DNA from: Clostridiales bacterium DTU069
GTDB taxonomy: Bacteria > Bacillota > Clostridia > DSM-8532
Assembly: GCA_001512485.1 (NCBI GenBank)
Contig: LFRV01000074.1
Span: 102,774-160,290 of the forward strand
Direction of reading: 5' to 3'
DNA: 57,517 nt
Position numbers and translations under genes: made by a program. Shown in pieces: positions 50,332-55,030 of this stretch (its first letter is position 1; every line of letters starts with the position of its first letter). The notes beneath the pieces are model-generated. The model had not been told where the DNA came from. It was given only the letters and a program-made list of their open reading frames with translations, and made no database searches.

Positions 50332-50519
50332 TTTTCTTTTTCCTTTCATAAAGGATTATGCTGCGAGCAGAATGCCGCACAGGCCGCCTGCGGCGGAAAA
50401 CATCAATTATCACAATTAATTATAACATAATATAAAAATAACGTTGACAAAATGAGTTGTTTGTTTTATGCTTTAAAATACAAAGTACTTTATAATTTAA
50501 ATAGAAAGGGTTGGTTATA

Positions 50520-51167
50520 ATGGATGAAAAGGTTCTACAGCAGGCGGTAGACGACATTTCGGTTATAAAAGGAGTTATAGAGCGCACAGGAAAGTCCTTC
50601 GTATCATTCAGCAAAATATTCATATACTGGGGCATACTCTTTATTTTTAACTCCATAATAAATACTATGGGGTACAGCGGGAAATTTGAATTTTTCAGCA
50701 CTTTATACAGTTATCCGGTACTGAATTTTATATTTCCCGTAGCGCTGACTGCAATCATCGCGATACTGATTTACAGGCAAGTATCGAAAAAAATGCCCCT
50801 GGTCGGGCTGGAGAAACAATTAATGAAGATTTGGCTGCTTATACTGATTATGAACGTTATTCCTCCCAAAATCAGCGTAAGCGTTATGGAACCGGCCGCA
50901 CAGGTTGTTACAATACATACCGATCTTACCCCGACGTTGTTTTTCAGCCTGGCCGTCGCTCTGATAGCGACGTCATTGTTCACAGGATACAGGCAGTTGA
51001 AATATACCGGTGCCGTATATATATTTATCAGCCTTTTATATGCATATGTAATACCGGCGTCTGCGAATGCAATCACTTTGCTTCAGCTTCCGTATATTTT
51101 AGCGCTTCCCTTTACCTTTATTTATACCGGGCTTTTCCTGAAATCCAGGCAGGCAAGGAGTGAATAA
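50520..51167 (+). CDS. Membrane protein paired with a winged-helix regulator
   Basis: A 215-residue protein with a cytoplasmic N-terminal helix (~1-30) and six predicted membrane segments (e.g. IFIYWGILFIFNSIINTM, FPVALTAIIAILIYRQV, LPFTFIYTGLFL). I cannot name the family. GGGTTGG precedes the ATG. The next gene, a small winged-helix protein, follows one base after the stop. Such pairs are common in Firmicutes and are thought to be self-regulated envelope-stress or differentiation modules (inference). Confidence 0.82.
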   Translation: MDEKVLQQAVDDISVIKGVIERTGKSFVSFSKIFIYWGILFIFNSIINTMGYSGKFEFFSTLYSYPVLNFIFPVALTAIIAILIYRQVSKKMPLVGLEKQLMKIWLLILIMNVIPPKISVSVMEPAAQVVTIHTDLTPTLFFSLAVALIATSLFTGYRQLKYTGAVYIFISLLYAYVIPASANAITLLQLPYILALPFTFIYTGLFLKSRQARSE

Positions 51168-51168
51168 A

Positions 51169-51477
51169 TTGGATATTAATCATATACCGGACATATTTCA
51201 ATCAAAACTTCGGATAGCGTTGGTATCCTGCCTGATCACGGGAGCAAAAAGCTTCAGGGAACTGAAGGAAGTCACCGGGGCAACGGACGGAAACCTAAGC
51301 GTTCATCTTACAAAACTCCAGAAAGCAGGATATATCGTTATCCGTAAAGATTTTTTCAACAATAAACCCCGGACCGAATACGAATTGACGCAAAAGGGAA
51401 GGAATGAGTTTATTGAATATGTAAACAGGCTGCAGCAGATTGTAAATGGCTATAACCCCCCTGAAAACAATAAGTAA
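51169..51477 (+). CDS. Small winged-helix transcriptional regulator
   Basis: A 102-residue winged-helix DNA-binding protein of the ArsR/MarR-like HTH_27 type: FQSKLRIALVSCLITGAKSF, then TGATDGNLSVHLTKLQKAGY as recognition helix and wing RTEYELTQKGRNEF. The TTG at 51169 is chosen because AGGAG lies 8 bases upstream; a GTG at 51160 overlaps that AGGAG. It is translationally linked to the membrane protein gene and probably regulates it. Confidence 0.85.
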   Translation: MDINHIPDIFQSKLRIALVSCLITGAKSFRELKEVTGATDGNLSVHLTKLQKAGYIVIRKDFFNNKPRTEYELTQKGRNEFIEYVNRLQQIVNGYNPPENNK

Positions 51478-51482
51478 CCATG

Positions 51483-52970
51483 TTATAAGTAAATTTTTTC
51501 GGTGGCTATATTATTGCAGAATATGCTGTCATGCTCAACAAAAATAATTGTGGGCTTAAACTCGAGCAGTAAATTCTCGATCTGCATACGGGATATTACA
51601 TCAATAAAATTGAGCGGTTCATCCCATATATGAAGATGTGCTTTTTCGCAAAGACTTTTTGCGATAAGCACTTTTTTCTTTTGCCCTTCGCTGAAGTTTT
51701 CGATATCCTTTTCAAACTGAATCCTGGAAAAATCGAGTTTTCGAAGAATAGCCTTGAAAAGGCTTTCATCTATCCCATGCCGCAGCGCGTAATCGGTTAA
51801 GTTTCCGCTCAGGTATGATGTGTCCTGGGATACATAAGATATAAGCAAACGGCTCCCTTTTTCAAAACATCCGGTATATGATATTTCTTCCCCGCAGATG
51901 AGCTTTATAATGCTTGACTTCCCCGATCCGTTCTTGCCGCAGAGAGCAATACGATCGCCTTGGTTAACGGTAAAACTTATATTCCGGCAGACAGCTTTTT
52001 CTCCATAAAATATCGATACATCCTTTAACGACAAAAGAGTGTTTTTGTGATATACCAACTGGCTGAGCTTAAGGGGCTGAGAAATTTCAATGTTTTTCAG
52101 CAGCTTTGACTTTTCCGCTATTGCTGCGTTCTGCCTTGCTTCGATTACCTTCGCTCTTTTCATCAGCTTCTTTGATTTCACTCCTTCATACGGACGACGG
52201 CCTATGCTTTTTTCAGTTTTATCAGGATCAAAACCGATTTTACTTTTCTCTGCAGCATCAGCCCAACCTGATTTTTCTCTCGCGCTTTTCATAAGACGGC
52301 TGATCTCTTTTTTAAGTTTTTCATTTTCCGCAAGCTCAAAACTATCCTGCCGCTCTTTATTAAGCAGCCATGATGAGAAATTACCCTGCTGAATTTCAAT
52401 ATTCATTTTGTTAAGTGACAGAATATGGTCTACACAGCCGTCAAGAAACGCCCTGTCGTGAGATACCACTATGAAGCCCTTTTTACTGTTCAGGTAATTG
52501 CTTACTATTTCTCTGCCGCGCATATCCAGGTGGTTAGTCGGTTCGTCAATAAGCAGGAAATTGTTTTCCTTCAAAAAAAGCGCAGCAAGCAATACCTTCG
52601 TCTTTTCACCATTCGAAAGTGTTGCAAACGGGCGGTACAATACATCTTCATCAACTTCAAGAAGCGACAGCTCGCGTAAAAGCTCCCAATGCATATGATC
52701 TGCACTTATTCTTTCAACGACATCAATAGTGTTTATGCTTTCATCTTCAACTATATACGGAAAATACTCGAATTTTACGGAAGCCGTAATATTTCCGCTG
52801 TATTTGTATTTACCAAGAAGCAGATTCAAAAAGGTAGTTTTTCCCCTTCCGTTTCTTCCTATAAACCCCAGTTTCCAATCCGTATCTATCTGAAAGCTTA
52901 CATTTTCGAAAATGTTATCGTAACTGCCTTCATAGGCGAAAGTCAGGTTTGAAACGTTTATAAGCGACAT
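51483..52970 (-). CDS. Lsa-type ABC-F ribosomal protection protein
   Basis: A 495-residue ABC-F protein with two ATPase domains and no membrane segment. Domain 1: Walker A GRNGRGKT, signature LSNGEKTK, Walker B FLLIDEPTNHLD. The linker (~195-300) is basic and helical and reaches the peptidyl-transferase centre in known members. Domain 2: Walker A GKNGSGKSS, signature FSEGQKKK, Walker B LHIWDEPLNFID. Start and architecture resemble the Lsa group, which protects ribosomes from lincosamides, streptogramin A and pleuromutilins; resistance is inferred. ATG 52970 gives MSLINVSNLTFAYEGSYDNI. It sits behind a long leader with two terminators. Confidence 0.9.
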   Translation of the reverse strand: MSLINVSNLTFAYEGSYDNIFENVSFQIDTDWKLGFIGRNGRGKTTFLNLLLGKYKYSGNITASVKFEYFPYIVEDESINTIDVVERISADHMHWELLRELSLLEVDEDVLYRPFATLSNGEKTKVLLAALFLKENNFLLIDEPTNHLDMRGREIVSNYLNSKKGFIVVSHDRAFLDGCVDHILSLNKMNIEIQQGNFSSWLLNKERQDSFELAENEKLKKEISRLMKSAREKSGWADAAEKSKIGFDPDKTEKSIGRRPYEGVKSKKLMKRAKVIEARQNAAIAEKSKLLKNIEISQPLKLSQLVYHKNTLLSLKDVSIFYGEKAVCRNISFTVNQGDRIALCGKNGSGKSSIIKLICGEEISYTGCFEKGSRLLISYVSQDTSYLSGNLTDYALRHGIDESLFKAILRKLDFSRIQFEKDIENFSEGQKKKVLIAKSLCEKAHLHIWDEPLNFIDVISRMQIENLLLEFKPTIIFVEHDSIFCNNIATEKIYL

Positions 52971-53186: not shown

Positions 53187-53223
53187 ATATATCACACTCC
53201 ACAATATACTTTAGTTAATTAAA

Positions 53224-53254
53224 AAATCCGCAGACAACGATCGCCTGCGGATTT
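53224..53254 (-). terminator. Second leader terminator of the ABC-F unit
   Basis: AAATCCGCAG/CTGCGGATTT stem with an 11-base loop, followed on the minus strand by TTTAATTAAC. It lies 37 bases before the small basic gene. Confidence 0.85.
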
Positions 53255-53282
53255 ACTTCTAAAAATAACAGGATTTGAAGCA

Positions 53283-53310
53283 ATAAAAAAACACGCTACC
53301 GATGCGTGTT
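53283..53310 (-). terminator. First leader terminator of the ABC-F unit
   Basis: AACACGC/GCGTGTT stem with a 7-base loop, then TTTTTTTATTG on the minus strand. A strong intrinsic terminator about 225 bases after the transcription start. Confidence 0.88.
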
Positions 53311-53347
53311 AACAGCTTTTTCTATATGCATTGAGAGCTGGCAGACT

Positions 53348-53485
53348 TTATTGCCGACTGCCTTTCATGCCGCATGGTTGCCCGAAATAATCCGCACAGG
53401 CGACGCAATTAATCCCGTAACAAGGAATTTCTGTGTACCTGTGCCGATATTCAATTAACGAAATGCCGGTACAAACCTCTTCATT
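53348..53485 (-). other. Open Cys-rich frame without a standard start, in the ABC-F leader
   Basis: A 45-codon frame ending in TAA at 53348 reads EEVCTGISLIEYRHRY, then CYGINCVACADYFGQPCGM. It has five Cys and ordinary codon usage but no ATG, GTG or TTG at its 5' end. The nearest ATG (53484) is one base off. A -1 shift would give a 45-residue protein. It may be a frameshifted gene, a programmed shift, or chance. Confidence 0.4.
53455..53484 (-). CDS. Nine-codon leader peptide (uORF) of the ABC-F unit
   Basis: ATG at 53484 encodes MKRFVPAFR then TAA. AAGGAG lies 11 bases upstream. It is ~50 bases after the promoter and upstream of two terminators, the arrangement of ribosome-mediated attenuators that control antibiotic-resistance ABC-F genes. 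The alternative is that this ATG begins the Cys-rich frame one base out of register. Confidence 0.5.
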   Translation of the reverse strand: MKRFVPAFR

Positions 53486-53540
53486 GCTTATAATACTCCT
53501 TCAATATATTCGATATGTTGCAGTACGCAATAACATCTAT

Positions 53541-53569
53541 ATTATATGGGTGTTTCAAAACATTGTCAA
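53541..53569 (-). promoter_or_regulatory. Sigma-A promoter of the ABC-F leader
   Basis: TTGACA (53564-53569) and TATAAT (53541-53546), both consensus, with a 17-base spacer on the minus strand. Predicted start near 53534. Confidence 0.92.
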
Positions 53570-53638: not shown

Positions 53639-55030
53639 TCATTGGGTATTTTCGTCTTCAAAAAGCAGATTGCGGACGGTCTGCATGAACTCGGCCCAGT
53701 TAACGTCCTCCATATAGTGCACAAAGACAACTTCCTGTATTCCATGATGTTCTATAAACTGCGGAATATTCATCCCGGTAACGGCAGTACTGTAAAAGCG
53801 CGAATCTATTATGTATATTTCTTCGTAATGGGGCAGAAAGAACGGAGCAATGGCGTTTCCGAACGAATCTTTCATAATCAGCAGCTTCCTGCCGTTTTTC
53901 ACATCCGTCTGAATAACCGACCACGTGCCGCCGCCGGAACTGATAAAGATTAAATACTTATCCTTTCCTTCCGCATAACTTAGGTCAATTACGTCGACTT
54001 CCCTGGGAGTGCTACCCGAATACCTGGTAAACCGGTTTTTCGTAAACGGCAGGTAAACCTGGATCGTATCGGGATTATTCTCCAGTTCTTTCGAAAGCGT
54101 TTTTGTATACGCGCTGCCGAGGAAATTATCCACGGTTACCGTTTCATACCGCTCAAGAGGAACGGCCTCTTCGCCGCGGGCCTTCATAAAAGCTTCATAT
54201 GCGTAATACGCTCCGAGAGCCGTCCAATGATGATCGGTCCTGAAATAGATATATTCATCCTTATGCCTGCTTAAGGCGTCGAAAACATCAACGGCTGTAA
54301 TATCCGGATGCAGCTTGCTGTTAATGTAAATCATCGCTTCATTCTGCGAGTCGGTCATGTCCCGGTAGCGTTTCATGAGCGTGAATTCCCCCGCCGTCGG
54401 CGCAATCATCGAATAAAGTTTTACCTTATCTCCGAGTTTCTCGTGATACATGTTTATTGTCTCGACATAATAATCGATCGCCTCTTTGTTGAAGCGGAAC
54501 AGTTCTACGGCTTTCCCGTCTGCAAGAAGCCAATATCCCATGTTTCCGTCATCTTCAAGTTCAAGCCCCGGTTCCGCAGCATTTTCCCTTTTCTCTCCCT
54601 CGGTTTCAGTTCGCTCCTGCGGATCCTGTTCTTTGTTTTCGCTTCCGTCCGGAGTAGTTTCTTCACGGTTTTCGGGATCGTTTCCGGCTTCTTCGCCGGA
54701 AAAATCCGCATCATCGCCTGGAGACTGCGGCAGTTTATCCCTTTCCGCAACCACCAATACATAGCCCGAATTAACCGTAAAAGCGTCTTTTATATCCCTG
54801 CACATAAGTATCATTTCGTCGCGCATGATAAAGGTATCGTTATAATAATTGTTATAGTCTTCGAAATATTTCCCATTGAAAAAATCTGCGGCGGAAAAAA
54901 CGGGCTTTCCGGCAAGTGCACGGTTTTCCACTTCGGATATTTCCGGCTTGTGAGTATTTATTAAATTGGCTGTTCCTAAAACGGCCAGCACCATAAAAAA
55001 TATCAACGTTTCCGCATAAATTTTTTTCAT
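53639..55030 (-). CDS. DHHW-family (AlgX/AlgJ-like) acyltransfer partner
   Basis: A 463-residue secreted or anchored protein with an N-terminal hydrophobic segment (~5-24) and the DHHW motif in YFRTDHHWTALGAYY. The family is SGNH-like and takes acyl groups passed by an MBOAT protein to modify extracellular polymers, as AlgX/AlgJ do for alginate. The preceding gene is an MBOAT protein, 16 bases away. An acidic Glu/Asp/Thr-rich insert (~105-165) is an unusual feature. GGGGAGGAG precedes ATG 55030; the frame runs 26 codons further upstream. Confidence 0.9.
   Translation of the reverse strand: MKKIYAETLIFFMVLAVLGTANLINTHKPEISEVENRALAGKPVFSAADFFNGKYFEDYNNYYNDTFIMRDEMILMCRDIKDAFTVNSGYVLVVAERDKLPQSPGDDADFSGEEAGNDPENREETTPDGSENKEQDPQERTETEGEKRENAAEPGLELEDDGNMGYWLLADGKAVELFRFNKEAIDYYVETINMYHEKLGDKVKLYSMIAPTAGEFTLMKRYRDMTDSQNEAMIYINSKLHPDITAVDVFDALSRHKDEYIYFRTDHHWTALGAYYAYEAFMKARGEEAVPLERYETVTVDNFLGSAYTKTLSKELENNPDTIQVYLPFTKNRFTRYSGSTPREVDVIDLSYAEGKDKYLIFISSGGGTWSVIQTDVKNGRKLLIMKDSFGNAIAPFFLPHYEEIYIIDSRFYSTAVTGMNIPQFIEHHGIQEVVFVHYMEDVNWAEFMQTVRNLLFEDENTQ

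Follow-up and report, generated by a model that had tools for sequence, protein, structure and literature searches.

A probable ribosome-sensing transcription attenuator, of a family found before varied translation-stress genes in Clostridia, precedes an Lsa-like ABC-F gene

The window, as the whole stretch of 57,517 nucleotides from Clostridiales bacterium DTU069 is called here, contains an Lsa-like ABC-F gene as the second gene of a minus-strand operon, 63 nt past a small basic gene and behind a leader with an upstream open reading frame (uORF). The features of the leader and the operon are given in order of transcription:

53541–53569, minus strand: sigma-70-type promoter, TTGACA-17-TATAAT, a 12/12 consensus match
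53496–53502, minus strand: Shine-Dalgarno sequence (SD) GAAGGAG of the uORF and 5' strand of helix P0; the match to covariance model R3 begins here
53455–53484, minus strand: nine-codon uORF MKRFVPAFR-stop, ATGAAGAGGTTTGTACCGGCATTTCGTTAA, aligning, after compensating indels, with family uORFs that end in E-V-[VA]-F-R-stop
53438–53445, minus strand: 5' arm of helix P1, GGCACAGG, 9 nt past the uORF stop
53394–53400, minus strand: 3' arm of P1, CCTGTGC
53384–53393, minus strand: anti-SD strand of P0, GGATTATTTC (CUUCUUUC in the family), a weak duplex in the window (−5.8 kcal/mol)
53371–53381, minus strand: 5' strand of the putative antiterminator, GCAACCATGCG
53295–53306, minus strand: 3' strand of the putative antiterminator, CGCATCGGTAGC, overlapping both arms of terminator 1
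53290–53310, minus strand: intrinsic terminator 1, with a homologous terminator in relatives
53224–53254, minus strand: intrinsic terminator 2, 14 bp, −18.9 kcal/mol, with a homologous second terminator in loci L084, L086, L088, L103–L106 and L111
53034–53186, minus strand: gene for a conserved small basic protein of 50 aa, W.INPRTRVQEN..NKKKRRQ.EKK
51483–52970, minus strand: Lsa-like ABC-F ribosomal protection-type gene, 495 aa, ATG at 52970, ending at 51483

The promoter, the nine-codon uORF with its SD, the two terminators, the small basic gene and the ABC-F gene had all been listed in the initial annotation, and all are present on the minus strand. The promoter at 53569–53541 is the sole site scoring above 9/12 in the 4.5 kb scanned. 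A consensus search between 53224 and 52970 found no promoter and no terminator, and so, at that sensitivity, it did not turn up the second promoter downstream of 53224 that had been named as counter-evidence. The leader folds more strongly than its own shuffles (z −3.8). A gene at 53642–55030, upstream of the leader, lies on the same strand, and an HTH_34 winged-helix regulator and an overlapping unnamed membrane-type ORF (51160–51477 and 50511–51167, plus strand) are convergent to the ABC-F gene.

Relatives of the leader were located with three covariance models: R1, from nine loci, R2, a refinement with 17 loci, and R3, built without the window. R3 matched the window at 53502–53374 with 50.5 bits (E 1.1e-8), the next match reaching 11.9 bits; this match from a window-free model indicates that the likeness is more than chance. 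The R2-stage search found leader copies in 20/391 class genomes and 3/399 phylum-sample genomes, window included, and 42 leader loci, counted by reading the located loci, were gathered, nearly all from Clostridia (5% of sampled class genomes). The model ends before the terminator, which is hence an independent feature: an intrinsic terminator followed 16/17 newly found leaders, compared with 8/539 control stretches. Family uORFs have 9–12 codons, mostly 10–12, with a good SD and the consensus end ..E-V-[VAIF]-[FL]-x-stop, and many of the leaders inspected also begin, as the window does, at a strong sigma-70-type promoter. P1 starts ~9 nt past the uORF stop in most leaders; after it come a pyrimidine strand, CUUCUUUC, complementary to the SD, then a GCAACC strand, which reads GUAACC in a second leader group, and usually two terminators. 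Rfam 15 gave nothing at or above gathering score in the window and only tRNA in the relatives, and a search of the open-access literature turned up no account of a leader like this ahead of rsgA, rtcB-prfH or exporters. The family, common to Clostridia and bacteria related to them, is apparently uncatalogued.

The genes downstream of the 42 leaders share a ribosome or drug theme. At nine, the small gene is followed by an RsgA-like GTPase of ~350 aa, and at eight by another gene, namely ABC-F (window), rplS, a methyltransferase, GNAT-type genes or unknown small ORFs, one of them ahead of a carbohydrate-kinase-like gene. The remaining leaders precede an RsgA-like GTPase without an intact small gene (5/42, the degenerate L122 and L150 among them), an ABC exporter (6/42), RtcB (5/42, with PrfH downstream where the contig allows), a CD3324-family protein (4/42, one followed by an RsgA-like GTPase), a MoxR-like AAA-ATPase (3/42), a GNAT protein (1/42) or a methyltransferase (1/42). 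NCBIfam was used to check the assignments of RtcB, PrfH, RsgA and CD3324, the PrfH match being partial because the locus ends; the exporter, methyltransferase, GNAT and ATPase labels are broad, resting on weak or general matches and on visual inspection. The leader is followed by RtcB-PrfH operons in L135 and L148; in L132 an RtcB gene follows it. L136 and L145 also carry RtcB-like genes behind the leader, the L145 copy apparently broken. In L122 (G025:C27) and L150 only degenerate remains of the small gene and RsgA follow the leader, and one of the two has lost the start of its uORF; these look like pseudogenised regulon members.

The small basic gene itself was found in 8/32 genomes of the window's family and in 15/391 of the class, 12 of the latter scoring strongly, and these copies do not lie near ABC-F genes. 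In 8/8 family loci and at nine class-sample loci the gene has the same leader in front of it. Searches of Pfam, PDB, plasmids, phages and viral contigs returned no relatives of the protein, and its identification as an ArfA-like rescue factor was dropped as unsupported, with no Pfam or PDB match.

The ABC-F protein scores 485.6 bits against NF000355 (cut-off 380, passed) and, over full length, 734.9 bits against the Lsa model NF000167, below that model's cut-off of 750; its nearest solved structure is Lsa(A), at 428 bits. We compared 85 loci of its relatives, 80 of them 67–76% identical and five from the window's family, with two of these five, L091 and L092, apparently being the same contigs as L005 and L077 among the 80. 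A viral-contig search with the ABC-F gave five relatives. The R1 leader was absent upstream of ABC-F in 85/85 of these loci; the lone weak match (19.5 bits) lies at the far downstream end of L069. Most of the relatives carry another conserved leader, composed of GGAGTTGAAAAG-ATG, an TTTCTTGC motif and a terminator on CAAGAA..TTTCTTG, whose uORF is MxxFSC-stop in many Clostridia and a bare start-stop pair in many Paenibacillaceae. The start-stop form (SD, ATG directly followed by TAA, TGA or TAG, then TTTCTTGC) was seen in L015, L022, L034, L040, L060 and ~25 more, ~200–250 nt upstream of Lsa-like ABC-F genes and mostly in Paenibacillaceae; it could be a minimal uORF that senses trapped initiation complexes.

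Since the small gene recurs behind the leader while the relatives of the ABC-F are without it, the leader goes with the small gene and not with the ABC-F. The only RsgA in the window's genome (91% complete) is of housekeeping size, and the 350-aa paralogue is absent, in keeping with ABC-F having replaced the GTPase. We read the locus as a translation-stress attenuator that, in this lineage, had its downstream gene swapped for ABC-F. The initial annotation had proposed a leader for an Lsa-like ABC-F gene. It was right that an attenuator-type uORF leader heads an operon ending in such a gene, but this is not the leader of that ABC-F lineage (0/85 relatives). The tandem terminators and the intervening small gene, which it took as unusual, are both common in the leader's own family and are therefore not oddities of an ABC-F leader. 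We consider it unlikely that the window's leader is specific to ABC-F in the manner of VmlR, CplR and LsaA, where PLSA drugs would trap the ribosome on the uORF start codon and so induce the ABC-F. The operon does contain an ABC-F gene, a uORF inside an anti-antiterminator hairpin is the logic described for vmlR (PMC9226507), and a start-codon stall would block P0 too; however, the relatives of the ABC-F are without this leader and most have another, the same leader also stands before non-ABC-F genes, and its uORF is long with a conserved C-terminus.

At the level of the family, covariation backs three pairings, namely the SD helix P0, the inner helix P1, and an antiterminator overlapping terminator 1. 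In the strand test, the complementarity of each leader's strands to their own partner was compared with that to swapped partners from other leaders. Across 20 leaders, p was 0.0001 for P1 and 0.004 for P0, in permutations that ignore phylogeny; one of two control pairings was null, and the other, which set the P1 5' arm against the anti-SD region, came out positive, as the last part of the P1 3' arm falls within that region. The antiterminator was tested as GCAACC plus 12 nt downstream against the 5' arm and loop of terminator 1, an extended region picked after sequence inspection, and gave p 0.0001 over 32 leaders, with most of the signal lying between two groups (GCAACC:GGUAGC vs GUAACC:GGUUAU). 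Within the groups, p was 0.04 (type A/B leaders) and 0.06, and one control stretch was significant in the second group. Pair counts over P0 and P1, on alignments fitted to the structure, found a compensatory change at 11/18 pairs (0/500 shuffles; 9/18 pairs without the window), and MAFFT-only counts on nine close leaders were uninformative. A pairing of the P1 3' arm with the 5' arm of terminator 1 was also tried as the antiterminator and rejected, own pairs being no better than swapped ones (p 0.94).

The covariation of the antiterminator also bears on the reading that the terminators mainly close a separate short transcript, be it an sRNA or the end of an upstream operon, with no switch. Terminator 2 is strong and the gene at 53642–55030 is on the same strand, as that reading would expect, but the leader moves among downstream genes keeping its uORF, hairpin and terminators, and together with the covariation this makes it very improbable. 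Terminator 2 has a highly conserved core, which reads GGUGGUCGUU or, in another group, GUGGUUAC. This core appears complementary to the GCAACC/GUAACC strand of the antiterminator, which may thus act on both terminators.

In the window, the antiterminator would pair 5'-GCAACCAUGCG (53381–53371) with CGCAUCGGUAGC, or CGCAU-C-GGUAGC (53306–53295). P1 (−20.9 kcal/mol) and the antiterminator (−12.5 kcal/mol) are strong helices there and P0 (−5.8 kcal/mol) a weak one. When a partial window RNA from the P1 3' arm to terminator 1 was folded, the antiterminator was preferred (probability 0.70 vs 0.12). With the polymerase just past GGUAGC, the antiterminator rose from 0.23 to 0.55 with a ribosome at the uORF stop, and a larger block gave 0.17. 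In equilibrium folding of the complete window leader, terminator 1 formed at 0.83–0.98 wherever the ribosome was placed, and under a ribosome block it stayed formed in 12/13 leaders, with a clear response in 0. A switch would therefore have to act during transcription, and the case for it rests on covariation together with partial-transcript folding. Alternative folds between the uORF and the terminators, suggested in the initial annotation, thus have pairings backed by covariation, although the full leader at equilibrium keeps terminator 1.

The stretch before the ABC-F gene is very probably a ribosome-sensing off-switch, and we hold with good confidence that 53569–53224 is a ribosome-sensing transcription attenuator, from a family common to many Clostridia translation-stress operons, with ABC-F exchanged in. 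Its parts, its family membership and the three covarying pairings are read from sequence comparison; beyond these we infer a drug-stalled ribosome as the signal, readthrough, passage through terminator 2, and an inducer. When ribosomes are free, the uORF would be finished quickly, and the SD and spacer would pair with the anti-SD strand (P0) around P1. P0 and P1 would lock up the GCAACC strand, terminator 1 would form with terminator 2 as backup, and the operon would be off. If a drug or another translation block detained a ribosome on the uORF, P0/P1 would stay open and GCAACCAUGCG could pair with CGCAU-C-GGUAGC, a stretch that overlaps terminator 1 in both of its arms. With this antiterminator formed, RNA polymerase would go on to transcribe the small gene and the ABC-F gene, the latter occupying the place that the RsgA-like GTPase has in relatives. 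The vmlR/cplR-like logic, the long uORF with its conserved end, the other targets and the toiL and RtcB2-PrfH precedents are the reasons for favouring a translation-stress attenuator.

What such an attenuator would sense depends on the uORF. The window holds a diverged copy, whose alignment to R3 points to a deletion close to the start codon and to 7 nt inserted after GAGGU. Its uORF ends in V-P-A-F-R-stop, 9 nt before P1, with E-V lost via the insertion and A-F-R-stop still in frame, and this kept frame may mean that translation of the uORF as far as this end is under selection. Most leaders (e.g. L103, L117, L128) have, ~9 nt ahead of the uORF stop, a GAGGUG hexamer that is complementary to the 16S anti-SD and possibly a pausing signal; it is retained in L084 despite a different reading frame, and lost from the window. 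One sub-version of the attenuator reading, differing in what is sensed, is a general slow-translation sensor, where any uORF stall (several drug classes, starvation) would open P0/P1 as in E. coli toiL, and where the C-terminal conservation would come from RNA pairing or the SD-like GAGGUG and not from peptide arrest. We regard this version as possible but somewhat doubtful. GAGGUG kept in L084, the diversity of the regulon and the toiL precedent (PMC12121999) speak for it; however, most leaders retain E-V-x-[FL] and the place of the stop, and the window indels keep A-F-R-stop in frame, which suggests that the peptide or the stop position matters.

Under the favoured attenuator reading, a guess about a single gene becomes a testable regulon, in which one RNA element ties ABC-F to an RsgA-like GTPase, RtcB-PrfH ribosome repair, exporters and a conserved uncharacterised small protein. 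As these genes share one leader, they are candidate contributors to survival when ribosomes are inhibited or damaged. We give about even chances to the wider proposal that one uORF attenuator family is a common Clostridia translation-stress sensor, co-inducing ABC-F, an RsgA paralogue with the small basic protein (assembly/rescue), RtcB-PrfH and drug export, with targets that swap between lineages. If true, this would be an RNA-encoded regulon for ribosome damage. The locus further hints that the sensor of an ABC-F is exchangeable, and such an exchange would alter which drugs induce it.

Among known systems, the leader of the ABC-F's own relatives (GGAGTTGAAAAG-ATG..TTTCTTGC) likewise has a uORF and a terminator before the same type of ABC-F, yet it is unrelated to the window leader in sequence and architecture and is absent from the window. 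The vmlR, cplR, lsaA and vga attenuators resemble the window in having an SD and uORF in a 5' hairpin, an alternative antiterminator, an intrinsic terminator and ABC-F downstream; this uORF/anti-antiterminator, antiterminator and terminator logic has been proposed for vmlR (PMC9226507) and partly shown for cplR (PMC10201436). Their uORFs, however, have 3–4 codons and sense start-codon-trapping drugs (PMC10201436, PMC9226507), the known PLSA-sensing ones being MIN, MK[LQ], MAGN and MR[IM] (PMC10201436), whereas that of the window has nine. With uORFs of 9–12 codons and a conserved C-terminus, start-codon sensing of lincosamides, pleuromutilins or streptogramin A cannot be assumed for the window's family, which also differs in its SD:anti-SD helix, tandem terminators and other targets, and in the window by having ABC-F as the second gene. 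E. coli toiL-topAI is alike in that a single uORF-hairpin element is proposed to sense several translation stresses, one uORF sensing several drugs, but toiL unmasks a ribosome-binding site and acts via Rho (PMC12121999), while the window family has intrinsic terminators. The RtcB2-PrfH operon, which protects E. coli against colicin E3 cleavage of 16S rRNA in the decoding centre (PMC9223846), has its counterparts in the RtcB-PrfH operons of L135 and L148 and the RtcB gene of L132, all behind the same leader family.
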